Source: Gemmatimonadota bacterium (GTDB taxonomy: Bacteria > Gemmatimonadota > Gemmatimonadetes > Gemmatimonadales > Gemmatimonadaceae). Taken from it: a stretch of DNA of 64,000 nt. The first letter of the stretch is position 1. Each line of letters begins with the position of its first letter. The position numbers and the translations under genes are program-made. Under the pieces are notes generated by a model, which had not been told where the DNA came from, searched no databases, and saw nothing but the letters and a program-made list of their open reading frames with translations. Below are positions 13,277 through 27,879 of the stretch, in pieces. The stretch covers positions 1 through 64,000 of the forward strand of contig JAJPIS010000021.1 in assembly GCA_021324635.1 (NCBI GenBank). The letters are read 5' to 3'.

Positions 13277-14065
13277 ATGACCGGAAAGCCGCAGAACGCG
13301 GAAATGCCATTTCTCGATCACCTCGAGGAGCTGCGATGGAGGCTCATCAAGGCGCTCGGGGCGCTCGCGATCACGGTCATTCTGTCCTTCGTGGGACTGA
13401 CCCAGATCGATCTCATCGGCATCCTCGCCAGGCCCATCCTCCCACTGCTCCACGGGCACAAGCTGATCTTCACCCATCCCACCGACTCGTTTTCCATCTA
13501 CATGACGATGTCGCTGACCCTGGGGCTGATCGCGGCGCTTCCCGTGATCGTCTACCAGGCGTGGGCCTTCCTCTCGCCAGCGCTCTATCGACACGAGAAG
13601 CAGGTCGTCGCACCGGTCGCCCTCGGGGCCGGGCTCCTCTTCCTCGCCGGCGTCTCGGTGGCCTACTTCGGCGTGATGCCGCTGGCGCTCAAGTGGCTGC
13701 TCGACTTCCAGACGGCGTCGATGGAGCCGCTGATCAGCGGGCTCGAGTACTTCGATTTCCTGTTCTCGATGTCGCTCGCGTTCGGTCTCTGCTTCGAGTT
13801 GCCCATCGTCGTGCTGGCCCTCACGGCGCTCGGCATCGTGACGCCGATGTTCCTGCGCAAGTACCGGCGCCACTCGGCCGTGCTCTGCACCTTCATCGGC
13901 GCGTTCCTGACCCCGGGTGACCTGATCTGGACGACGATCGCGATGGCGGTGCCGCTCTATCTCCTGTACGAGCTCAGCATCCTGCTCTCGACCATCATGT
14001 ATCGGCGCCGCCTGGCGGCCAGCGGACCCACGGTGCCGGACGCGGGGTATCGGGCCCCGGCGTGA
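13277..14065 (+). CDS. tatC: Sec-independent protein translocase TatC
   Basis: The 262-residue protein has six predicted membrane helices. It has the conserved N-terminal FLDHLEELRWRL (residues 12-23) that helps read the twin-arginine signal, and also PVIVYQAWAFLSPALYRHEK and LSMAFGLCFELP-like segments. It is the signal-peptide receptor of the Tat system that exports folded proteins. The matching tatA gene lies about 14 kb further on instead of beside it. ATG 13277 starts 115 bp after cpoB. The stop overlaps lptD. Confidence 0.95.
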   Translation: MTGKPQNAEMPFLDHLEELRWRLIKALGALAITVILSFVGLTQIDLIGILARPILPLLHGHKLIFTHPTDSFSIYMTMSLTLGLIAALPVIVYQAWAFLSPALYRHEKQVVAPVALGAGLLFLAGVSVAYFGVMPLALKWLLDFQTASMEPLISGLEYFDFLFSMSLAFGLCFELPIVVLALTALGIVTPMFLRKYRRHSAVLCTFIGAFLTPGDLIWTTIAMAVPLYLLYELSILLSTIMYRRRLAASGPTVPDAGYRAPA

Positions 14066-17000
14066 CGCGGCTCGTGCCGGCGCGCGCGATCCTCCTCGGC
14101 GTTGCGGCGCTTCTCGTGGGAGGGGCGGCGACGGCGGCGCACGCCCAGGGGGGCGTCGGCGGGGTCGTTCGACCCACGACGCCCGGGCAGGTCCTGACGC
14201 CGCGAGAGCGCGCGCAACTGGACTCGATTCGCCGGGAACGCGCCCGCCGGGACTCGGCGGCGCTCGACTCGGCGCGCAAGACGCTGGTCACATGGGAGGA
14301 GCCCGACTCGGTCGCCGAAGCGCTCATGCAGCGCGAGGGCTACCAGGTGACCCGCTACCAGGGACAGGGGGCGATGTACAACGCCCAATCCCACGCGCTC
14401 ACCCTGCATGGCAACGAGGAGCACGAACGGGCGGCGGTCAACCAGGACCAGACGCTGGTGGTCGGGGACACGATCGTCTATCAGGACTCCTCACGGATCG
14501 TCACCGCGCGCGGCGATACGGTCACCATCCGGGATCCGACACGGAACCAGGACGACATCGTGTCGATCGGGCAGGTCACCTACGATGTGACGACACACGA
14601 GGCGATCACGACCAACGTCCGGACCGTGTTCCCGAGTGGCGGCAACCGATGGATCATCGGCGCCGACGCCGGGGCGTACGTCGGCGACACGACCAAGAGC
14701 CACGCCGCGAATCCGTCGAACACATTCTACGGCCTCGACGGCGCGATCACGACGTGCGACGACAGCTTCCCACACTATCACTTCACGGTCAGGGAGCTCA
14801 AGTTCGTCACCAAGCACGTCCTGGTCGGCCGGCCGGCCGTGCTGTACATCGCCGACGTCCCGGTGATGTGGCTGCCGTTCGTGGTGCAGGACCTCCGGAC
14901 AGGACGGCGCAGCGGCATCCTGACGCCGCGCTTCGGGATCAGTGAGCTGGTCCGGAACAGCCCGTCCTACCGGCGCCACATCGAGAACGTCGGCTATTAC
15001 CTGGCGCTCAATGACTACACCGACCTGACCGCCTGGCTCGACTGGCGGAGCAGCGCACGGGCCACGCCGACCGACCCGGGTTGGTCTCGCTACAACGGAG
15101 TCTTCCGCTATCGGTGGCTCGACCGGTTCGTCAACGGAAGCCTCGGCCTCTCGTATCAGTCGCTGAGCAACGGGCAGACGAACACCGCCATCTCGTGGCA
15201 GCATCAGCAGGATTTCTCGCTGACGTCGCACCTCAACATGGACATCAACTACGAGACGAGCACCGCGATCCAGCAAACCACGTACTTCAACCCGTACGCG
15301 GTGCTGGCCGTGATCTCCTCGCAGCTCAACTACCAGCAGGCGCTCGGCCCGATGAACTTCAGCCTCGGCGGCACCCAGAAGCAGTACCCAGGCCGCTCGG
15401 AGCTCGACCGCACGTTCCCGACCTTTGCGCTCTCATCGAAGCCGATGTCGGTCGGCCACTGGCTGACCTGGACGCCGGCGTTCTCGGTCACGAACACGCA
15501 GAGTCTCAACGTCGACGAGTTCGGCAACTTCGCCTACCGCTATGCCCCGGGCGCGTTCGGCACCATCGACAGCACGCAGGTCAAGCGGAACCAGCGGGCG
15601 ACGAGCGGGACCTTCGACACGCCGCTCAAGATCTTCGGCTTCACCTGGCGCAACTCGTTCCGCTACTCGGACCAACAGAACAATTTCCCCGAGCAGGATC
15701 TGGTGTACACGCCGGCCGTGATCGGCGGGCGCGACACGGCAGTCGCGACGCGGCGCATCTTCTCGGAGACGTACAACACGAGCCTCGACTGGGAGACCGG
15801 GATCGACCTCCCCAGCCTGTTCCAGGGCACATGGAACATGGTGCCGAGTGTGTCGATCCAGAATGCCGATCCCGGCGCCGCGTTCCTGATCCGCACTCAG
15901 TTCACCGGCGCCAGCTTTGTCTCGCAGCCCAAGCGGCCGACGTTCGGGCTCTCCGTGTCGCCGACGCTGTACGGCCTGTTCCCGGGCTTCGGCGGCGCGT
16001 CGCGCTTCCGCCACTCGATCACGCCGGTGATCACCTTCAGCTACGCGCCGGCGGCGGCCATCTCCAACGCCTTCTACCAAGCGGCGGGCCAGTCGCCGAT
16101 CGGCTCCCTGGCCGGGCTTCGTCAGGAGGCGGTGTCGCTGTCGCTCTCGCAGAACATCGAGGCGAAGCTCAAGGTCAGGCCCGATGAGGATCCCGACAAG
16201 GCGAAGAAGGTCAAGATCCTGTCGCTCAACTTCGACCCGATCTCCTACGACTTCGTGCGGGCGCAGGTGACGCATCGCACGCTCAGCGGCTTCACCAACG
16301 GCTCCTGGGGCTACAACCTGCGCTCGGACCTCATTCCGGGGTTCGACTTCCGCCAGACGTACTCGCTGTTCCAGGGCGACCCGCTGAGCGACACGGCCGT
16401 GTTCAAGCCGTTCTGGCAGCAGGTGAGTGCCTCCCTGCAACTGAATCGGAACTCGGGGATCGTGGCCGCCATGGCGCGACTGCTGGGACTCGCGCCCCCA
16501 ACCAAGAACCCGGACCTCGACAGCCTGCAGGCATTGCGGGGTCGCGACCCCTTTCTCGCGCAGCAGCTCGCCGCGGGGAACGTCGTCACCGGGCAGCCCG
16601 GCATCGCCCCCTACGCGATCCCCGGCGCGGGACAGGGATGGCAGGCGACGCTGACGTTCAGCGCCTACCGGCAGCGGCCGCCGGTCGGGAATCTCTCGAA
16701 CGTGATCCAGTACAACCCGGCGATCGTCTGTGCCCCGTATCAGAACGTGAACCCGATCTACTACAACCAGTGCGTTCTGGCGAAGCGCACATCGACGCCC
16801 GACACCAACTTCAACGCCACCACGGCGGCCGCGCCGTTCGTCATCGTGCCGCCCACCACGACCCTCCAGGCTTCGACCAGCTTCAACATCACGCCCAAAT
16901 GGGCGGCGCAGTGGCAGACGACCTATGACTTCCGGGCCAAGAACTTCGCCAGCCAGATCGTGACGCTCCAGCGCGACCTGCACGACTGGCGCGCCATCTT

Positions 17001-17139
17001 CGCCTTCACGCAGTCGCCCACCGGGAGCTTCGCCTTCAGCTTCTTCGTCGCGCTCAAAGCCGAGCCGGCCCTGAAATTCAACTACGACAAGCAGACGTAT
17101 CGCGCGCCGGGTCAGGAGGCGACCGGCCAGACCTATTAG
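14062..17139 (+). CDS. lptD: LptD-type outer-membrane LPS assembly protein
   Basis: This 1025-residue protein has a signal peptide over about residues 1-28. An OstA/LptA-like jellyroll covers about 75-270 (DTIVYQDSSRIVTARGDTVT, VSIGQVTYDV), and a long beta-barrel domain follows. The diagnostic LptD stretch is VLYIADVPVMWLPFVVQDLR, then RRSGILTPRFG near residues 265-300. It would form the final LPS channel in the outer membrane. Only three cysteines are visible (232, 890 and 904), not the four that form the two disulfides of E. coli LptD. GTG 14062 overlaps the tatC stop. The protein is larger than the E. coli form (784 aa). Confidence 0.85.
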   Translation: MTRLVPARAILLGVAALLVGGAATAAHAQGGVGGVVRPTTPGQVLTPRERAQLDSIRRERARRDSAALDSARKTLVTWEEPDSVAEALMQREGYQVTRYQGQGAMYNAQSHALTLHGNEEHERAAVNQDQTLVVGDTIVYQDSSRIVTARGDTVTIRDPTRNQDDIVSIGQVTYDVTTHEAITTNVRTVFPSGGNRWIIGADAGAYVGDTTKSHAANPSNTFYGLDGAITTCDDSFPHYHFTVRELKFVTKHVLVGRPAVLYIADVPVMWLPFVVQDLRTGRRSGILTPRFGISELVRNSPSYRRHIENVGYYLALNDYTDLTAWLDWRSSARATPTDPGWSRYNGVFRYRWLDRFVNGSLGLSYQSLSNGQTNTAISWQHQQDFSLTSHLNMDINYETSTAIQQTTYFNPYAVLAVISSQLNYQQALGPMNFSLGGTQKQYPGRSELDRTFPTFALSSKPMSVGHWLTWTPAFSVTNTQSLNVDEFGNFAYRYAPGAFGTIDSTQVKRNQRATSGTFDTPLKIFGFTWRNSFRYSDQQNNFPEQDLVYTPAVIGGRDTAVATRRIFSETYNTSLDWETGIDLPSLFQGTWNMVPSVSIQNADPGAAFLIRTQFTGASFVSQPKRPTFGLSVSPTLYGLFPGFGGASRFRHSITPVITFSYAPAAAISNAFYQAAGQSPIGSLAGLRQEAVSLSLSQNIEAKLKVRPDEDPDKAKKVKILSLNFDPISYDFVRAQVTHRTLSGFTNGSWGYNLRSDLIPGFDFRQTYSLFQGDPLSDTAVFKPFWQQVSASLQLNRNSGIVAAMARLLGLAPPTKNPDLDSLQALRGRDPFLAQQLAAGNVVTGQPGIAPYAIPGAGQGWQATLTFSAYRQRPPVGNLSNVIQYNPAIVCAPYQNVNPIYYNQCVLAKRTSTPDTNFNATTAAAPFVIVPPTTTLQASTSFNITPKWAAQWQTTYDFRAKNFASQIVTLQRDLHDWRAIFAFTQSPTGSFAFSFFVALKAEPALKFNYDKQTYRAPGQEATGQTY

Positions 17140-17287: not shown

Positions 17288-18070
17288 ATGCTGAACCGAC
17301 GCTGGACGCTCGCGGCCGCGGCCCTCGCCGCGTCGAGTGCCGCGTGTAGCAACAACACCGGTCCGGTCCAAACGGGCGTCCGGCTCGCGAACCCGGACAG
17401 CCTCACGTACGTGCTGCTCCCGGGCGTGCCCGGTCAGACGAGTGGGGTGATGCTGGCGTGGGCGCCGGCTCCGGATCAGAACGTCACCGGGTACGTGATC
17501 TACGGCCGCGCGTCGGCGAGCGGGGCCTGGAACACGCTCGCCTCGACGGGCGCCACCGTGTACTTCGATCCGGGCACGCCGCTGGCCGAGTACTACGTCG
17601 CGTCGGAGGATCAGGTCGGCGATGTCAGCAGCGGCACGCCCGCGGTCGCCGTGGACACGGCGTCCCCGTTCGGGCCCCCCGATAGCCTCGCCGCGATCGG
17701 GATCAACACGGGAGTCAAGCTCCATTGGTCCGCCGACGCGCGGCTCAGCAACCCTGGGCTGTTCGCGTACTACCGGGTCTTCTCCGAGCCGGCATCGGGC
17801 TCGGGTGGGTCCGCCGCCTGTCCGAACGGGGCGGCGGGCTTCGCGCTCGAGGGCACGACGGTCTCCGAGGATTTCGTCGTCGCCGGCCTGACGAACGGCT
17901 CGACGTGGTGTTACGGCGTCAGCACGGTCTCCGTGCTGGGGCAGGAGAGCCTGCTCACGCCGTGGATCATCGTCTCGCCCAACGCCGGTGGCGGGAACTT
18001 CGACATCACGACCGATCCCAGGGCGACGGTCGTCATGCATCGCGCACGACTCCGGCGCTCGCCGGCTTGA
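17288..18070 (+). CDS. Lipoprotein with fibronectin-III-like domains
   Basis: The 260-residue product has a lipoprotein signal ending ASSAACSNN (Cys20). Two regions look like fibronectin type III folds. Residues about 35-115 include VMLAWAPAPDQNVTGYVIYG, and residues about 130-225 include GVKLHWSADARLSN and GSTWCYGVSTVSVLGQES. No catalytic motif is visible, so it is probably an anchored binding or scaffold protein. ATG 17288 has AGGGGA a few bases upstream. It lies 31 bp before hutH and may share its transcript, although no link to histidine use is obvious. Confidence 0.75.
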   Translation: MLNRRWTLAAAALAASSAACSNNTGPVQTGVRLANPDSLTYVLLPGVPGQTSGVMLAWAPAPDQNVTGYVIYGRASASGAWNTLASTGATVYFDPGTPLAEYYVASEDQVGDVSSGTPAVAVDTASPFGPPDSLAAIGINTGVKLHWSADARLSNPGLFAYYRVFSEPASGSGGSAACPNGAAGFALEGTTVSEDFVVAGLTNGSTWCYGVSTVSVLGQESLLTPWIIVSPNAGGGNFDITTDPRATVVMHRARLRRSPA

Positions 18071-18101: not shown

Positions 18102-19715
18102 ATGGGTGAGCCTGTCGTCCTCGATGGCGAATCGCTGACGGTCGAGCAGGTCGCGGCGGTCGCGGCCGGCGCACCGGTCGCGCTGGCGGCCGACGCCCGG
18201 TCGCGCATGCGACGGACACGAGGGATCGTCGACCGTATTGTCGCCGGTGGGGACGTCGTCTACGGCGTGACGACCGGATTCGGCAAGCTCTCCGACGTCG
18301 CGATCTCGCGCGATCACCTGCGCGAGCTTCAGGTCAACCTCGTCCGGAGCCACTCGGCGGGGGTCGGCGCCCCCCTGCCCGAGCGAGAGGTGCGCGCGAT
18401 GATGGCGCTGCGGGCAAACGTGCTGGCGAAGGGATACTCGGGGTGCCGCCCCGAGTTGGTCGACCTTCTCGTCGGGATGCTCAACGCCGGGCTCCATCCC
18501 CCGGTGCCCGAGCAGGGCAGTGTGGGAGCGAGCGGCGACCTCGCGCCCCTCGCGCACCTCGGCCGATCCCTCATCGGCGAGGGGGAGCTGTCCCGCGACG
18601 GGCGCACAGGGCCAGCCGCGGCGATGCTTCGCGGAGCTGGGCTGACGCCGGTCGTGCTCGAGCCCAAGGAGGGGCTCGCCCTCATCAACGGCACGCAGGC
18701 CCACACGGCCGTCGCCGCCCTCGCCATCGTGGAGGCACGGCGACTCTGGCACGTCGCGCACATCGCCGGAGCGATGGCGCTGGAGGCGCTGCTCGGAACG
18801 CCGGTCGCCTTCGACGCCCGGATCCAGCGCGCCCGGGGGCAGGTCGGTCAGGAGGAATCCGCGGCGCTGCTGCGGGGGCTGCTCGCCGACAGCGAGATTC
18901 GCGAGTCGCACCGGGTCGGCGATCCGCGGGTCCAGGATGCCTACGGGCTCCGCTGCATTCCGCAGGTGTACGGGCCGGCGCGCGATGCGCTTCGCTTCGC
19001 GGAAGGGCTCGTCGGCCGCGAGCTGAACGCGGCGACCGACAACCCGCTGGTCTTCGACGACGGCACCCTACTGAGCGGCGGCAACTTCCACGGACAGGTC
19101 GGCGCCCTCGCGCTCGACGTGCTCGCGATCGCGGTCACCAACCTGGCGACGATGAGCGAGCGACGCACGGATCGCCTCGTGCACCCGGACCTCAATCAGG
19201 GGCTGCCGCCGTTCCTGGCGCGTGACGCGGGCGTGCACTCCGGGTTCATGATGGCCCAGGTCACCGCGGCGGCGCTCGCCTCCGAATGCAAGCTGCTGGC
19301 ACACCCGGCGAGTGTCGACACGATCCCGACCGACGGCGGCAAGGAAGACGTCGTGCCGATGGCGATGGCCGCGGCGTGGAAGCTGCGACGGGTCCTCCAG
19401 AATGCGCGCTATGTGCTCGCCATCGAGCTGATGTGCGGGGCGCAGGGGATCGACTACCGTGCACCGCTGCGGCCCGGACGCGGTGTCGCGCACGCACACC
19501 GGCTGGTGCGGGAGCTCGTGCCGCCGCTCGCCGGAGACCGCGTCCTGAGCACGGACATCGAGCGACTGGCCGCCGGGATTGCCGACGGCCGGTTCGATGC
19601 GGTGACCGGCGATCCGGCGGCGCCGGCCGATCGCACTCCGCCCCATCGTGCGGGCGACGGCGCCAGCCGCCCGGCGACCCCCCGTCAACCGACTGAACGC
19701 ACGAGCGACGCATGA
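18102..19715 (+). CDS. hutH: Histidine ammonia-lyase
   Basis: The 537-residue enzyme deaminates histidine to urocanate. The self-forming MIO cofactor triad is Ala143-Ser144-Gly145 in [15 protein letters not shown], the expected position. Other family motifs are [34 protein letters not shown] and [11 protein letters not shown] 18102 follows a GGAGG at 18083-18087. The C-terminus has about 25 extra polar residues ([13 protein letters not shown] and on) compared with a usual 510-residue HutH. The last bases overlap hutU (ATGA), so the two are coupled. Confidence 0.96.
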
Positions 19716-21427
19716 GCCCACCGTCCGAGACGCTCGTTTCCCCGGCCGCCCCCCACGCTGCTCCCCAGGCCCGTCCCCGGCGCGTGAGCGCGCCCCGCGG
19801 CACCGAGCGCTCCTGTCGTGGCTGGCAGCAGGAAGCCGCGCTGCGCATGCTGATGAACAACCTCGACCCCGCCGTCGCCGAGCGTCCCGACGACCTGGTC
19901 GTCTACGGTGGCACCGGTCGGGCGGCGCGGAGCTGGGAGGCGTTCGATGCGATCGTCGCCGTCCTCCGGCGGCTGGGGGACGACGAGACCTTGCTCGTGC
20001 AGAGCGGAAAGCCGGTGGGGGTCTTTCGCACGCACGCGGGTGCGCCGCGTGTGCTCATCGCCAACAGTAACCTCGTGCCCCGCTGGGCCACCTGGGACGA
20101 GTTCCGGCGCCTCGAGCGGATGGGCCTCACGATGTACGGCCAGATGACGGCCGGCTCGTGGATCTACATCGGCTCGCAGGGGATCCTGCAGGGCACGTAC
20201 GAGACGTTCGCCGCGGTTGCCCTGCGGCACTTCGGGGGCTCGCTCGCCGGCCGGCTCGTCGTCACCGCCGGCCTCGGCGGGATGGGCGGCGCGCAGCCGC
20301 TCGCGGCGACGATGAACGGTGGCGTCCTGCTCGGCGTCGAGGTGGATCCGGCACGCATCGAGAAGCGCCTCGAGACCCGGTATTGCGACCGGATGACGGA
20401 CGATATCGACCAGGCGCTGGCGTGGGCGGCGGCCGCGCAGCAGGCGCGCACCGCGCTGTCGATCGGGCTCGTGGGCAACGCCGCCGAGGTCGTGCCGACG
20501 CTCGTGCGCCGCGGGATCACACCCGACGTGCTCACCGACCAGACGAGCGCGCACGATATGCTGAACGGGTACGTGCCGGCGGGGCTCACGCTCGCCGACG
20601 CGGCCGCCCTACGGCGAGACGATCCGGCCGGCTACGTCGCGCGGTCGACGGCGTCGGCGGCGGCGCACGTGCGCGCGATGCTCGAACTCCGGCGCCGTGG
20701 CGCGGTCACCTTCGACTACGGCAACAACCTGCGCACGGTGGCCTTCGACGCCGGAGTCGCCGACGCGTTCACGATCCCGGGCTTCGTGCCGGAGTACATC
20801 CGGCCGCTGTTCTGTCAGGGGAAGGGGCCATTCCGGTGGGTGGCGCTCTCCGGCGATCCGGACGACATCTATCGCACGGATGCGCTGGCGCTCGAGCTCT
20901 TTCCCCACGACGACGCGCTCCGCCGCTGGCTCACGATGGCGCGCGAGCGGGTGCAGTTCCAGGGCTTGCCGGCGCGCATCTGCTGGCTCGGACAGGGGGA
21001 GCGGGCACGGTTCGGGGTCGCGATGAACGACCTGGTCGCACGCGGCGAGCTGTCGGCACCGATCGTGATCGGGAGGGACCATCTCGATACGGGGAGCGTG
21101 GCGTCGCCGTTCCGCGAGACGGAAGGGATGCGCGACGGCAGCGACGCGATCGCCGATTGGCCGATCCTCAACGCGCTCCTCAACGTGGCGAGCGGGGCGT
21201 CCTGGGTCTCGGTGCACCATGGCGGCGGCGTCGGGATCGGTAACTCGCTGCACGCCGGGCAAGTGATTGTCGCCGACGGGTCGGCCGAGATGCGCGAGCG
21301 GCTGGCGCGCGTACTGACGAACGATCCGGGGATCGGGATCGCCCGCCACGCCGACGCCGGATACGAGGAGGCGCGCACGACGGCGCGGGCGCAGAGGCTC
21401 GACCTTCCCATGATCGATCGCGACTGA
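19712..21427 (+). CDS. hutU: Urocanate hydratase
   Basis: The 571-residue enzyme converts urocanate to imidazolonepropionate using tightly bound NAD. The core begins [17 protein letters not shown]. The NAD site lies in [20 protein letters not shown], and the active-site cysteine lies in [26 protein letters not shown] and [20 protein letters not shown] are also diagnostic. A Pro/Ala-rich N-terminal tail of about 25 residues precedes the normal start region. ATG 19712 overlaps the hutH stop. It is followed after 16 nt by a radical SAM gene, not by another hut gene. Confidence 0.96.
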
Positions 21428-21443: not shown

Positions 21444-22415
21444 GTGCTCTCCGCGAGGTTCGCGCCCTGGCATGTGCCGCTGTTCATCGCGAAGTACGCG
21501 TATCTGACCGCGCGGCAGCGGCCGATCCTCGTGCACTTCGAGGTGACGCAGCGGTGCAACGCGCGGTGCGGGTTCTGTGATTTCTGGCGCACGGACCCGG
21601 CGGCGCGACACAGCGAGGTGGACAGCTTCGCCGCGGCCGCACGCTACTTCAACCCGCTCATGATCACGTTCACCGGCGGCGAGCCGACGCTGCGGCGTGA
21701 CCTGGAGGACCTCGTGCGGGGGGTCGCGGCGGCGGTCCGGGTGAGGTACATCACGATCATCACCCACGGTGGCACCCTGACGCCGGCGCGCGCCTGGTCG
21801 CTCTGGGAGGCGGGCGTCAACCAGTTCAATGTCTCCCTCGACTACCTCGACGGCCGGCACGATCGGGCGCGGGGCATCCCGGGACTCACCGCGCGGATCT
21901 TCGGGACCGTCGAGGCGATGCGCGCGCGTGGCATCGACAGCATCCGCTTCAACACCGTGATCCGCGACGACAACCTGGATCAACTGCTGCCCATCGTCCA
22001 CCGGGCCGCGGAGCTCGGATGCGGCGTGAACTTCAGCCTCTATACCGACTCCAAGAACGGCAACCGCGGCCCGCTGGTCGCGCCCGAGCGCCTGCCGGCG
22101 CTCGAGGATGCCGTCGCGGCGCTCCTCGCCTACAAGCGGCGTCGGCGCGGCGTGATCACGAGCTCGGATCACTACCTCCGCGCCATTCCCCGCTACGCCC
22201 GCGGCGAGCTGGAGGGTCCGTGTCGGAGTGGAGTCCGCACGATCCATCTCGATCCGACGGGACACGTGAAGCGATGCCCGGATTTCCCGACGGACTTTCA
22301 CTGGACCGCCTTCCGCCGCTACGAGCCGATCGCCTGCGACGCTTGCTTCTACGCCTGCCGTGGGGAGGCCCAGGCGCCGCTGCAGTGGTCGCGCGTCCGC
22401 GACGTCATTGCGTGA
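21444..22415 (+). CDS. Radical SAM protein with SPASM-like C-terminal cysteines
   Basis: The 323-residue product carries the radical SAM cluster motif CNARCGFC (Cys38, Cys42, Cys45) and the SAM-contacting TGGEP at about 77-81. Near the C-terminus, Cys260, Cys278, Cys298, Cys301 and Cys305 (the last three in CDACFYAC) form a pattern like the SPASM/twitch domains that hold extra iron-sulfur clusters. Such enzymes often modify peptides or proteins, or act as HpnH-like lipid enzymes. The substrate cannot be read from the sequence. GTG 21444 lies 16 nt after hutU, and the gene ends 37 nt before hutI, so it sits inside the hut operon. No precursor-peptide gene was found next to it. Confidence 0.85.
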   Translation: MLSARFAPWHVPLFIAKYAYLTARQRPILVHFEVTQRCNARCGFCDFWRTDPAARHSEVDSFAAAARYFNPLMITFTGGEPTLRRDLEDLVRGVAAAVRVRYITIITHGGTLTPARAWSLWEAGVNQFNVSLDYLDGRHDRARGIPGLTARIFGTVEAMRARGIDSIRFNTVIRDDNLDQLLPIVHRAAELGCGVNFSLYTDSKNGNRGPLVAPERLPALEDAVAALLAYKRRRRGVITSSDHYLRAIPRYARGELEGPCRSGVRTIHLDPTGHVKRCPDFPTDFHWTAFRRYEPIACDACFYACRGEAQAPLQWSRVRDVIA

Positions 22416-22452: not shown

Positions 22453-23718
22453 ATGCGGCTCTTCGTCGGGGCGGGCCAGGTGGTCACCTGTGCCGGCCCG
22501 GGGCGTGCGCGGCGGGGGAGCGAGATGCGCGACCTCGCCATCCGGACCGACGCCGCGGTGGCGGTCGAGGGCGAGCGGATCGCCGCGGTCGGCCCGCGAG
22601 CGGCGCTCGAGCGCCGCTACCCCGACGCGGACCGGGTCGAGTGCGGCGGCGGGGTCCTCATGCCGGGACTCGTGGACTCGCACACGCACGCGATCTTCGG
22701 CCGGCCGCGCTACGAGGAGCAGGAGCAGCGCGCCGCCGGCGCTGACTACCTCGCGATCGCCGCGGCCGGCGGTGGCATCCACGCATCGGTGCGCGATCTG
22801 CGCCGGCGCTCGGGCGACGAGCTCCTGGCGCTCGCCCGGCCCCGGCTCGCCCGTCTGGCGGCGTACGGGACGACGACGGTGGAGATCAAGTCCGGCTACG
22901 GGCTCACCATCGAGGACGAGCTCAAGGCGCTGCGTGTCATCGCCGGGCTCGCGGCCACGACGCCCCTGCGGCTCGTGCCGACCTGGCTCGGCGCGCACGA
23001 GATTCCGCTCGAGTACCGCTCGGCCCCCGGAGGACGGCAGGCGTACATGGACCTCCTCGTGGGCGAGATGCTGCCGGCCGTCGTCGCCGGGCGCCTCGCC
23101 TGCTTCGCCGACGTCTTCTGCGAGCCGGGGGTCTTCACGGTCGAGGAGACTCGCCGAGTGCTCGAGGCGGCGCGCGCGGCCGGGTTGGCGTTGAAGATGC
23201 ACGCCGACGAGCTGGCGCCGGCCGGCGGCGCGGAGCTCGCGGCCGGGCTGGGGGCCACATCGGCGGATCATCTGGCGGCGATCTCCGCCTCCGGGATCGC
23301 GGCGCTCGCCGCCGCACCGACCGTGGCGACCCTCCTGCCGGGGACGATGCTGTTCCTCGGTAAGGCGGCCCAGGCCCCCGCCCGCGCCCTCATCGACGCC
23401 GGGGCGGCCGTGGCGCTGGCGACAGACTTCAATCCGGGGACTTCCCCGACGGTCAACTTTCCGCTCATCCTGACCCTGGGGGTGAGTCAACTGCGGCTCT
23501 CGGCCGCCGAGGCGGTGATGGCCGCGACGGTCAACGGTGCGGCGGCATTGGGGTTGGCCGACCGCGTCGGACAGCTGGCTCCGGGCTTCTCGGCGGACCT
23601 CGCGCTGTTCGACATCGAGGACATCCGCGAGCTGCCGTACTGGTATGGGGATCGGCGGTGCCGCGCGACGTGGTCGCGGGGCAAAGCTTGTCACCCATTT
23701 GACTTACCGGTACCTTGA
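22453..23718 (+). CDS. hutI: Imidazolonepropionase
   Basis: The 421-residue amidohydrolase opens imidazolonepropionate to formiminoglutamate. Metal-site motifs are DSHTHAIFG near residue 75 and LKMHADELAPAGGAEL near 240, with ATDFNPGTSP near 320. VEIKSGYGLTIEDELKALR and VPTWLGAHEIP are signature sequences of HutI. ATG 22453 is used; GTG 22450 is an in-frame alternative. No hutF, hutG or hut regulator gene follows, so the fate of formiminoglutamate is not encoded in this window. Confidence 0.95.
   Translation: MRLFVGAGQVVTCAGPGRARRGSEMRDLAIRTDAAVAVEGERIAAVGPRAALERRYPDADRVECGGGVLMPGLVDSHTHAIFGRPRYEEQEQRAAGADYLAIAAAGGGIHASVRDLRRRSGDELLALARPRLARLAAYGTTTVEIKSGYGLTIEDELKALRVIAGLAATTPLRLVPTWLGAHEIPLEYRSAPGGRQAYMDLLVGEMLPAVVAGRLACFADVFCEPGVFTVEETRRVLEAARAAGLALKMHADELAPAGGAELAAGLGATSADHLAAISASGIAALAAAPTVATLLPGTMLFLGKAAQAPARALIDAGAAVALATDFNPGTSPTVNFPLILTLGVSQLRLSAAEAVMAATVNGAAALGLADRVGQLAPGFSADLALFDIEDIRELPYWYGDRRCRATWSRGKACHPFDLPVP
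23688..23716 (+). promoter_or_regulatory. Candidate promoter for the large TPR gene
   Basis: TTGTCA at 23688-23693 and TACCTT at 23711-23716 are separated by 17 bp. The pair lies in the last codons of hutI and would leave a leader of about 130 nt before the TPR gene start at 23852. The -10 matches TATAAT weakly, so this is a suggestion only. Confidence 0.3.
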
Positions 23719-23851
23719 ACAGTCTCCTGTGCAGCGGGGCGCCGAGCCTGACGGCGGCCGTCCCGCGCCCCGTGCGTGCGACCGGCCGTGCGGTGCCTGT
23801 GGGGGCGCTGCGCCGGCGCTCCCCCGAGACGACCGCCGCCTCCCTGCCCTG

Positions 23852-26836
23852 ATGTCGAACCCAGCGAAGCTCAAGAAGAAAGCCGCCGAGTTCGAGCAGA
23901 AGAAGCAGTTCGACAAAGCGCTTCAGCTCTACATCCAGATCCTGGAGGAGAGCGACGGCGGCGAGGACGAGGGCGACGTCGCCCTGTACAACCGCGTGGG
24001 CGACCTCCTGATGCGTCAGGGCAACGTCGCCGAGGCGATGACGTACTACGAGAAGGCGGTCGATCTCTACGCCGAGAGCGGCTTCTTCAACAACGCCATC
24101 GCCCTCTGCAACAAGATCCTCCGCCAGTCGCCGGGTCGAAACTCGGTCTACTACAAGCTGGGGAAGATCAGCGCGAAGAAGGGCTTCATCAGCGACGCGA
24201 AGCAGAACTTCCTCGAGTACGCCGCACGCATGCAGGCGGCCGGGCAGCTCGACGAGGCCTTCCGGGCGCTCAAGGAGTTCGCGGACCTCTGCCCGGACCA
24301 GGACGACATCCGGCTGATGCTCGCCGATCAGCTGTCGAAGAAGGACCGTAAGGGCGAGGCACTGGAGCAACTCCAGCTGTTGTACGAGAAATTCGAGGCC
24401 GAGGGTCGCGGGGCCGAGATGCGGGCGACCGTGGACCGGATGCGGGCGATCGATCCGACGGCCGAGCCCAAGGCGGGCGAGGGGCCGCGCCGGCGGAAAA
24501 CGACCGGTCTGGTGTTCATCGACCTCTCGGACGACGGGGCGGCGAAGCCTGCCGCCGGGCCGGCGGTCAAGCCCCGCCCGGGCGCTCCGCCGGCGCCGGC
24601 GCCGGGGCGCGGGGCAGCGCACGGCGCCCGCGGTCCTGCGGGACCGCCGGCCCGCCCCAGCGTGGCGGTGCCCCCGCCGCCCGTCGCGCACGCGCCCCCC
24701 GTGGCGGAGCTGGAGCCCGAGCGCGTGGGGCTCGAGACTCCGAGCGACGACAGCGCTCGACGCCCGAGCGGCCCGAACGCCGGGGCGGAGCCGGACACCG
24801 GCCCGGGCGGCGAGAGTGCGGTCGTGGCCGGGAACGACACTGTCGAGGGGCTCGACCGATTCGAGCCGCACGAGGCCTCATCGTCCGCCGGGACGGTGCA
24901 CGGTTTCGAGACGTCGGCGGTGCTCGACGTGTCGGCGGACGAGGGTCGGGGGGAGAGCGGCGCGCCCAATGCCGAGCATGGGCTCCCGGGGGTCGCCCCG
25001 CTGAGCGGCCCACAGTTCGGGGCCCTGCGCCTCGCGACACCGCTCGAGCTCCAGGCGATCGAGGCGCCGGCGCACGATCTCGCTCTGCCCGGCGAGCTGC
25101 CGCCGCTCGTGGACCCTGCGCTCGCCAGCCCATCGCTCGCCGAGCTGTCGACTGACGATGCCGGGAGCATGCTCTCGTTGGGCGGCGAGATGGAGCTGAT
25201 CATCCCCGACGTGGATGCCGACCTCGGACACGGTGCCGGCGTCCTCTCCCCGCTGCCGGATGAGGACGACCGGCTGTCCGACCTCCCCATCCTGGACGTC
25301 GACATCCTCTCGCACGGCGGCCGGCGGCATCCGGCGCCGTTCGCCGTCGAGGATGAGTCAGACGAAGGTGCGCCGCTCGCCGGGGAGCCGGCGGCCCCCG
25401 GGGCGGACGAGACCGGGGACGAGGCTGGGGACGAAGCCGGGGACGAGGCCGGGGACGAGGCGGAGGCTGCGGATACCCTGCTCCCACTGGTGGGTGGCGC
25501 GGAGCTGCTCGCCGTGCCCGAGGACGAGTCGACCGACGGTGAGGGGGGCGACGCGGAGGGCGATGACCTGTCGGGCGAGCCGCCGATCGCGGGGCACATG
25601 GTCGGCTGGGCCGCCGGCCCCACAGCGCATTCCCCCATCGACTCGGCGGACGATCTCGACGCGTTACGGGCACGGGTGATCGCGGAGCCGGAGAACTGGG
25701 AGCTTCGCCGGCGACTGGCCGAGGCACTGCTCGACGCAGGCGACCACGCCGGCGGGCTTCAGGCGCTCGAGGCGACGATGATCGGGCTCGAACGGGCCCA
25801 CGACCTGGAAGGCGCACGCGCGGTCGCTGATGAGATCATCCGACTGAACCCGAACTCGGTCCGCTACCACCAGAAGCGCGTCGAGTACGCCTTTCGCAGC
25901 AACGACCGGGTGCACCTCCCGGACTCGTATCTGGAGCTGGCGGACGCGCTCTTCCGCGCCGGACAGACCGACAAGGCGCGCGCCGTCTACCATCGCGTCC
26001 TCGAGCTGGCTCCGAGCGACCCCCGAGCGCAGGCCGCCCTGAGCACGTTCGGCGATATCAGTGACCCGGCCCCGCCCGAGGCAGCGCCGCCGGTCGCCGC
26101 GCCGCCGGCAGTGCCGGCACAGGCGGCGCGGCCACAGGCCGTCCTGCCGCAGGTCGGGCCGCCCCAGGGTGTGCCGCCAGACCTCGCCCCTGCCCCCGCC
26201 CCGTCACCGCCGGCCGCCCCCCGACCCGACGCAGCCGGCCGGCCCCGGGCGGCGCCGGCTCGCCCGTCCGCGCCCGCCGTGGCGGCTCCGGCCGAGGCCT
26301 CGGACGACGGCTATGTGAACCTCGGGGAGTGGCTTCGCGACGAGGAGCAGCCGCGGTCGACCCGGATGGTGGTCGAGCAGGAGCAGCCCACGGGGGACGA
26401 GGCGGCCGATTTCGCCGACATGCTGCGGAAGTTCAAGCAGGGAATCGCCGAGAATGTGGGCGAGGAAGACCATGACAGCCATTACGATCTGGGCGTCGCG
26501 TACAAGGAGATGGGACTCGTCGACGAGGCGATCGCCGAGTTTCAGAAGGCCCTGCGCGGGCCCCATCACCGGCCGCGGGCCTACGAGGCGTTGGGGCAGT
26601 GCTTCCTCGAGAAGGAGCAGTACCGCGTCGCCGCGACGATCCTGAGCCGGGCGCTGACCGAGCCGGGGGTCACGGATGACCAACTGGTGGGCGTGCTCTA
26701 TCTTCTTGGCTATGCTTCCGAGGCTCTCACGCAGTGGGATGCCGCAGTGGCCTACTATCAACGCGTATTTGCCGTGGATATCGAATTCCGTGATGCGGCG
26801 CAGCGGCTCGCGATGCTCGAGCGGGCGCCTCGGTGA
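23852..26836 (+). CDS. Large TPR-repeat protein with acidic and proline-rich linkers
   Basis: The 994-residue protein has no signal peptide and is probably cytoplasmic. TPR helices cover about residues 1-200 (NPAKLKKKAAEFEQKKQFDK, AMTYYEKAVDLYAESGFFNN), 600-740 and 870-990 (SHYDLGVAYKEMGLVDEAIA). They are separated by a Pro/Ala linker and a long acidic section containing four GDEA repeats. It starts at ATG 23852, without a clear ribosome site. It overlaps the polyprenyl synthase gene by 4 nt. The architecture suggests a protein-protein scaffold; the partner is unknown. It has the same general layout as the TPR protein at 30646-32613. Confidence 0.8.
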   Translation: MSNPAKLKKKAAEFEQKKQFDKALQLYIQILEESDGGEDEGDVALYNRVGDLLMRQGNVAEAMTYYEKAVDLYAESGFFNNAIALCNKILRQSPGRNSVYYKLGKISAKKGFISDAKQNFLEYAARMQAAGQLDEAFRALKEFADLCPDQDDIRLMLADQLSKKDRKGEALEQLQLLYEKFEAEGRGAEMRATVDRMRAIDPTAEPKAGEGPRRRKTTGLVFIDLSDDGAAKPAAGPAVKPRPGAPPAPAPGRGAAHGARGPAGPPARPSVAVPPPPVAHAPPVAELEPERVGLETPSDDSARRPSGPNAGAEPDTGPGGESAVVAGNDTVEGLDRFEPHEASSSAGTVHGFETSAVLDVSADEGRGESGAPNAEHGLPGVAPLSGPQFGALRLATPLELQAIEAPAHDLALPGELPPLVDPALASPSLAELSTDDAGSMLSLGGEMELIIPDVDADLGHGAGVLSPLPDEDDRLSDLPILDVDILSHGGRRHPAPFAVEDESDEGAPLAGEPAAPGADETGDEAGDEAGDEAGDEAEAADTLLPLVGGAELLAVPEDESTDGEGGDAEGDDLSGEPPIAGHMVGWAAGPTAHSPIDSADDLDALRARVIAEPENWELRRRLAEALLDAGDHAGGLQALEATMIGLERAHDLEGARAVADEIIRLNPNSVRYHQKRVEYAFRSNDRVHLPDSYLELADALFRAGQTDKARAVYHRVLELAPSDPRAQAALSTFGDISDPAPPEAAPPVAAPPAVPAQAARPQAVLPQVGPPQGVPPDLAPAPAPSPPAAPRPDAAGRPRAAPARPSAPAVAAPAEASDDGYVNLGEWLRDEEQPRSTRMVVEQEQPTGDEAADFADMLRKFKQGIAENVGEEDHDSHYDLGVAYKEMGLVDEAIAEFQKALRGPHHRPRAYEALGQCFLEKEQYRVAATILSRALTEPGVTDDQLVGVLYLLGYASEALTQWDAAVAYYQRVFAVDIEFRDAAQRLAMLERAPR
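25415..25462 (+). repeat. In-frame 12-bp tandem repeat, four copies
   Basis: Four near-identical units of GGGGACGAGGCT type lie at 25415-25426, 25427-25438, 25439-25450 and 25451-25462. They encode GDEAGDEAGDEAGDEA in the acidic linker of the TPR protein. Changes in copy number would stay in frame. Confidence 0.85.
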
Positions 26837-27879
26837 CGATGCGCGCACCTCTCCCAGCCGCCGGCGATGGCGCCCGCGCGCAGCTGCGGCGCGCCACGAG
26901 CCGGCACGTGCCGTCGCTATCGGCCATCCAGGCGCCGGTGCTCGGCGATCTCGAGCGCGTCCGCCAGGAGCTCTGGCGGATCGTCGATGACGACTCGCCG
27001 CTGATCGGGGGCGTCAACCGGCACCTCATGGGGATGAAGGGGAAGCTGTTCCGGCCGACGCTCGTGCTCCTGTCGAACGCCGTTGCCGGTCGGCCCGCTC
27101 CGCTCGCGACGACGCTCGCTGCCGTGCTCGAGCTCATGCACGTGGCGACCCTCGTGCACGACGATGCGGTCGACCACTCGGTGCTCCGGCGAGGCATGCC
27201 GACGCTGAACGCGGTCTTCAGCAGTCAGATCTCGGTCATTGCCGGGGACTTCCTCTACCTGCGGGCGCTGCGCGAGCTCGCGCGGTTGGGCGACCTGGAC
27301 GCCCTGCGCGTGCTCACGGACGCCTCGGTGCAGATGACGCGGGGCGAGCTGCTCCAGCTCACCAGCGGGGATCCGCTCGAGTTCACCGAACGCGACTACG
27401 AGGCGCTGATCGAGGCGAAGACCGGGTCGCTGTTCTGGGCCGCGTGTACGCTCGGCGCGCTCTGTGGCGCACCCGAGCATCGACCGGCGCTGTCCCGCTA
27501 TGGCCTGCGCCTCGGGATGGCGTTCCAGGTGGTCGACGATCTGCTCGACTACACGGCGGACCAGGAGGAGACAGGGAAGCCGAGCGGGCTCGATCTCCGG
27601 GAGCGGAAGATGACGTTGCCGCTCATTGCCGCATTGCGGACCATGGACTCGGCGGCGCGTGGCCGCGTCGAGTCCTTTTTCGCCGCCGAGACGAGCACGG
27701 ACGGCGACATCCAGGAGATCATCGCGCTGGCGGAGGCCCACGGCGGGCTCGCGTACGCCCGGCATCGGAGCGAGACGCTCGCCCAGGAGGCGGAGGAGGC
27801 GCTCGCCGAACTGCCGCCGACGCCCGCCCGAGGTGCGCTCTACGACGCGCTGACGTACGTGCTGGAGCGCCGCTCATGA
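26833..27879 (+). CDS. Polyprenyl diphosphate synthase (trans, long chain)
   Basis: The 348-residue enzyme elongates isoprenoid diphosphates head to tail. The two aspartate-rich motifs are DDAVD (110-114, in TLVHDDAVDHSVLRRG) and DDLLD (235-239, in FQVVDDLLDY). They coordinate magnesium and the diphosphates. GMKGKLFRPTLVLL near 67-80 is also typical. Small residues before the first motif suggest a long product, such as the octaprenyl or heptaprenyl tail of a quinone. Chain length cannot be fixed from sequence. GTG 26833 overlaps the TPR stop; ATG 26839 is an alternative. Confidence 0.92.
   Translation: MTMRAPLPAAGDGARAQLRRATSRHVPSLSAIQAPVLGDLERVRQELWRIVDDDSPLIGGVNRHLMGMKGKLFRPTLVLLSNAVAGRPAPLATTLAAVLELMHVATLVHDDAVDHSVLRRGMPTLNAVFSSQISVIAGDFLYLRALRELARLGDLDALRVLTDASVQMTRGELLQLTSGDPLEFTERDYEALIEAKTGSLFWAACTLGALCGAPEHRPALSRYGLRLGMAFQVVDDLLDYTADQEETGKPSGLDLRERKMTLPLIAALRTMDSAARGRVESFFAAETSTDGDIQEIIALAEAHGGLAYARHRSETLAQEAEEALAELPPTPARGALYDALTYVLERRS

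Follow-up and report, generated by a model that had tools for sequence, protein, structure and literature searches.

Radical SAM enzymes use an iron-sulfur cluster to cleave SAM, after which a hydrogen atom is abstracted from the substrate (PMC9012708). An auxiliary cluster can then accept an electron, as proposed for BtrN, or bind the substrate as a ligand, as in MoaA (PMC9012708). The SPASM motif consists of seven cysteines in the arrangement CX9-15GX4C-gap-CX2CX5CX3C-gap-C, which bind two auxiliary clusters (PMC6231123), and the term twitch is used here for a truncated SPASM domain that has the first cysteines of the motif and one auxiliary cluster. BlsE, which turns out to be the closest solved structure to the protein described below, is a decarboxylase acting on cytosylglucuronate (PMC3715490). 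Here, we follow up a radical SAM gene found in the hut operon for histidine degradation of a Gemmatimonadaceae genome, within a stretch of 64,000 nucleotides that we call the window. Almost every genome of the family keeps this uncharacterised enzyme, which is housed in the hut operon and probably not dependent on it.

The gene occupies positions 21444..22415 of the forward strand, on which the hut genes and the outer landmarks given below also lie. It opens with GTG and encodes 323 amino acids, as judged from the open reading frame and its Pfam match. Upstream, hutH (histidine ammonia-lyase, 18102..19715 from its likely start, in a reading frame opening at 17988; TIGR01225, 645.9 bits against a cut-off of 539) overlaps hutU (urocanate hydratase, 19712..21427; TIGR01228, 950.9 bits, cut-off 375) by 4 nt. 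The radical SAM gene begins after a gap of 16 nt and is followed, 37 nt further on, by hutI (imidazolonepropionase, 22453..23718, with a likely ATG at 22453; TIGR01224, 412.4 bits, cut-off 298). Reading frames, Pfam and NCBIfam thus agree with the preliminary description, which had placed a radical SAM gene between hutU and hutI with exactly these gaps. Outer landmarks are an upstream gene at 14062..17139, used in the tblastn comparisons, which we take to be lptD-like from reading its translation, and, downstream, a TPR-repeat reading frame (23537..26836, Pfam TPR models, true start downstream of hutI) and a polyprenyl diphosphate synthase gene (26833..27879; PF00348, 5.7e-65). Scanning the locus for promoters returned none, and the terminator scan gave little above chance; the operon position probably provides the radical SAM gene only with transcription, by read-through from the genes upstream. 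A further reading frame of 260 amino acids (17288-18070) separates the lptD-like gene from hutH; conserved in several genera as well as in sister families, it has no Pfam match, and its label fn3 was given by look only.

The encoded protein belongs to the radical SAM superfamily, with a Radical_SAM core above the curated Pfam cut-off (PF04055; 3.5e-23, 83 bits against 29.5) and a CxxxCxxC motif in the form C38-x3-C42-x2-C45. The Pfam scan detected no other domain. An auxiliary region at codons 260-305 (22221..22358) was compared with the published SPASM and twitch motifs and reads C260-X12-G273-X4-C278-gap-C298-X2-C301-X3-C305. Its five cysteines and the three of the core motif are each conserved in at least 98% of 78 orthologues, so that the extra cysteines of the preliminary description were correctly located. 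The label SPASM-like, also given there, holds for the first part of the motif; the remaining cysteines are missing, and a full SPASM protein was rejected. The cysteine spacing fits a twitch domain and the predicted fold matches MoaA, SkfB and BtrN, features that fit an uncharacterised twitch-like radical SAM protein with one putative auxiliary cluster.

Profile searches gave no closer assignment, as no NCBIfam model reached its cut-off with this protein. The top model was TIGR03961 (PTO1314 family), with 83.1 bits over residues 21-275 against a cut-off of 306.05, and a divergent orthologue scored 87.9 bits against the same value. The protein therefore falls outside the PTO1314 family, whose model is itself a hypothetical equivalog with no stated function. 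HpnH (adenosyl-hopene transferase, TIGR03470), a candidate raised earlier, aligned to residues 10-193, a stretch that takes in the N-terminal helix ahead of the core, but was dropped at 41.8 bits against a cut-off of 225.05. BlsE (TIGR04466) reached 48.1 bits against a cut-off of 400. MoaA, PqqE, AhbD and other SPASM/twitch enzymes have the radical SAM core and the auxiliary-cluster region in common with the protein, which nevertheless lies far under their family cut-offs and does not contain the full seven-cysteine motif. The same genome has separate genes that, from their sequences, we take to be HpnH-like (on another contig, L119), MoaA-like (L120) and PqqE-like (L118). A plasmid search with the protein returned weak MoaA- or PqqE-type matches only.

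The AlphaFold2 model of the protein (mean pLDDT 89.1, pTM 0.89) has its best solved match in BlsE (PDB 7vob; Z 24.2, rmsd 2.9 over 274 residues, 20% identity). The two proteins are similar in length and domain layout, but sequence identity is only about 20% and nucleoside-antibiotic genes were not seen near 21444-22415. The next matches are SkfB, SuiB, MoaA and viperin-type enzymes with Z of 19-22, and since several enzymes score in this range, the predicted fold leaves the reaction unfixed.

The distribution of the gene was followed through 298 genomes of the phylum Gemmatimonadota, 103 from Gemmatimonadaceae (the window's own genome included) and 195 from other families. Orthologues with 56-81% identity occur in 100 of the 103 and in none of the 195, where matches reach 24-34% identity only. 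Three Gemmatimonadaceae genomes are exceptions: in G031 and G258 the locus is cut by contig ends, and in G102 lptD-hutH-hutU-hutI-TPR is intact and has no radical SAM gene. By comparison of coordinates, hutU is adjacent to the gene in 85 of the 100 orthologue-bearing genomes, and three more (G170, G174 and G248; L169-L174) have contig breaks with the usual order on both sides. The survey of related hut operons proposed at the outset thus revealed the same insertion, seen directly or fitting, in 88 of 100 genomes. The gene stays at this locus; the contrary outcome, absence from the hut operons of relatives and a place in a clear pathway elsewhere, was not obtained. One contig labelled Vicinamibacterales carries a 71% identical match that probably stems from faulty binning.

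The sister families f2 and f3 reveal the order of events. Their locus reads tatC-lptD-(fn3)-hutH-hutU-hutI-TPR-polyprenyl synthase, in which the aligned parts of hutU and hutI lie only about 10-140 nt apart and a radical SAM gene is absent (L126, L128, L129, L144 and L145; L127 and L132 agree, with hutH undetected). Because these families have the hut operon in the same locus and not the gene, the operon is the older of the two, and insertion of the radical SAM gene between hutU and hutI took place in the ancestor of Gemmatimonadaceae. The reverse scenario, with the radical SAM gene as old resident and hut as newcomer, is overturned by the same loci.

What happened afterwards is more informative about function than the insertion itself. 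The radical SAM gene has no adjoining hutU in 12 of the 100 genomes, which come from genera g4, g5, g18, g21, g23 and g28. Ten loci have lptD directly before it (G021, G023, G190, G244, G134, G281, G180, G068, G243 and G278), and there the TPR gene follows wherever the contig continues. In G199 (g23), hutH is the only local hut gene left. G228, a genome 88% complete in 750 contigs, showed no local hut genes, and hutU was found nowhere else in it. Other members of g4 and g21 keep the usual order, which makes these changes look separate and recent. Several of the 12 genomes have a divergent hut cluster elsewhere, with a different gene order and with hutU at 58-67% and hutI at 41-48% identity, which suggests repeated replacement by transfer. 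Such clusters with other gene orders, in place of the native one, are seen at L140, L142, L175, L176 and L177. Two hut clusters examined in g5, with hutU at 74-77%, may instead be native genes that moved. Searching the hut clusters elsewhere in these genomes with the query detected no radical SAM gene.

Throughout these rearrangements the radical SAM gene survives the loss or replacement of its hut neighbours under purifying selection. Pairs of hut-less congeners give dN/dS values of 0.025-0.072 in g4, g5 and g18 and of 0.167 in g23, and hut-linked pairs give 0.035-0.154; the ratios are rough because dS is high and near saturation in several pairs. Every cluster cysteine is kept in the hut-less congeners. 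A gene whose role lay solely in the local hut operon should decay in such lineages, and its retention makes a radical step built into the hut pathway, as the preliminary description had contemplated, unlikely. The presence of the gene does not track hut in either direction, as hut occurs without the gene (sister families, G102) and the gene without local hutU (12 genomes). This settles a tempting false lead. Tight, family-wide conservation in an operon was no sign here of a common pathway, since the host operon was repeatedly lost and replaced and its guest remained.

Taken together, we consider it probable that the gene encodes a twitch-like radical SAM enzyme specific to Gemmatimonadaceae, which entered between hutU and hutI in the family's ancestor and serves a separate function that does not depend on histidine breakdown. 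Among the three roles put forward earlier, an unrelated job carried along is accordingly favoured over the handling of a hut product or the maturation of a hut enzyme, on the evidence of the sister-family operons, the 12 genomes without adjacent hutU and G102. Hut-independence has to be read against the about 88% of Gemmatimonadaceae that keep the gene exactly between hutU and hutI, and against the finding that nearly all genomes without local hut genes have hutU elsewhere, which leaves room for action in trans.

For such an enzyme we favour the oxidation of a C-H bond in some small molecule, independently of hut. By analogy with the superfamily, the CxxxCxxC motif would bind the radical SAM [4Fe-4S] cluster, and SAM would be reductively cleaved to a 5'-deoxyadenosyl radical that takes a hydrogen atom from the substrate. 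A single auxiliary Fe-S cluster, with C260, C278, C298 and C301 as candidate ligands, could then accept the electron of the substrate radical or position the substrate, as proposed for BtrN and MoaA, respectively; C305 is a further conserved cysteine beside these candidates. Its substrate may well be small, perhaps a lipid or the precursor of one, and is less likely to be a peptide, since the protein has no RRE domain, there is usually no space for a precursor peptide, and relatives from other clades, as distinct from orthologues, lie beside lipid-type genes.

A narrower form of this explanation, in which the enzyme modifies lipids as part of a wider lipid-linked group, is a tentative lead. 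In a maximum-likelihood tree the Gemmatimonadaceae proteins group together (94/99) on a long stem and fall outside a well-supported clade, in which further radical SAM proteins of Gemmatimonadota are joined by those of a second phylum. Members of this related clade in the other phylum occur in operons with genes for a CDP-alcohol phosphatidyltransferase, a VTT-domain membrane protein and a DAGK-type lipid kinase, and in Gemmatimonadota they are often found beside VTT genes. Another distant relative, in G097, adjoins a Tes-like gene and shares the CxxCxxxCRGE ending. The locus in Gemmatimonadaceae itself includes lptD and a polyprenyl synthase gene. Against this, the tree puts the Gemmatimonadaceae proteins outside the lipid-linked clade and supports no sister group more than weakly, the insertion is younger than its neighbours lptD and polyprenyl synthase, and most Gemmatimonadaceae have no Tes-like genes. 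As the tree ties the family firmly to neither lipid-linked group and the neighbours predate the insertion, we regard the lipid idea as a lead. Tes as a partner was rejected, with Tes-like genes (E <= 1e-30) in only 4 Gemmatimonadaceae genomes of the sample.

A direct role in histidine catabolism also has to be weighed: the enzyme might oxidise or decarboxylate urocanate, imidazolonepropionate or a toxic by-product, or repair or mature a hut enzyme. The place of the gene between hutU and hutI in most Gemmatimonadaceae, the presence of hutU somewhere in most genomes that have the gene, and the decarboxylase activity of BlsE (PMC3715490) all speak for it. We nevertheless judge this role unlikely, since the gene is absent from the operon that sister families have at this location and from the complete operon of G102, and hutU, in 267 of the 298 phylum genomes, is spread far beyond Gemmatimonadaceae. 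Purifying selection on the gene after local hut loss or replacement, and the failure of the query to detect a radical SAM gene in the hut clusters elsewhere in those genomes, point the same way.

We give much the same low probability to a SPASM/twitch maturase of the RiPP type, which would modify a peptide or protein encoded elsewhere. SkfB, SuiB, CteB and anSME are among the structural neighbours, and many NCBIfam peptide maturase models match the core below threshold. However, a protein of 323 amino acids cannot accommodate an RRE domain at its N-terminus, where the model has one helix ahead of the core; Radical_SAM is the sole Pfam domain, and gaps to neighbouring genes seldom offer enough space for a precursor gene. 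Least probable of all is a family-wide enzyme with radical chemistry on an imidazole that derives from histidine, be it urocanate, imidazolonepropionate or a damaged form of these. Operating alongside the hut enzymes or in trans, it would make histidine breakdown in Gemmatimonadaceae feed a side product.

Literature searches found no paper on PTO1314, or on 8WM2 with radical SAM, none joining Gemmatimonadaceae, radical SAM and histidine, and none on radical SAM with DedA and CDP-alcohol phosphatidyltransferase. Judged by title and abstract, the two papers in which radical SAM, urocanate hydratase and hutU occur together look incidental.

Several observations on individual loci can be added. 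A conserved operon at L158, L159 and L160 (G411, G454 and G494) encodes a CDP-alcohol phosphatidyltransferase, a radical SAM protein, a VTT-domain protein and a DAGK-type lipid kinase. It resembles an uncharacterised lipid pathway that includes a radical step, and we know of no function for it. In another phylum, G305 has a hutU gene that is followed, some 170 nt later, by a radical SAM gene whose product is 29% identical to the protein encoded at 21444..22415 (L162:6391-9078). The pair was rejected as a second instance of the arrangement, as the protein belongs to another clade and the other distant-homologue loci examined, that of its near relative L197 included, have no hutU nearby; we treat the adjacency as chance. 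A radical SAM gene accompanied by hutH alone, without local hutU or hutI, occurs in G199 and on two contigs of G176 (L090:9943-11442; L095; L097). G176 has three radical SAM loci (L095, L096 and L097) on three contigs, with 68-70% identity to the window protein, a three-copy state that may reflect assembly contamination.
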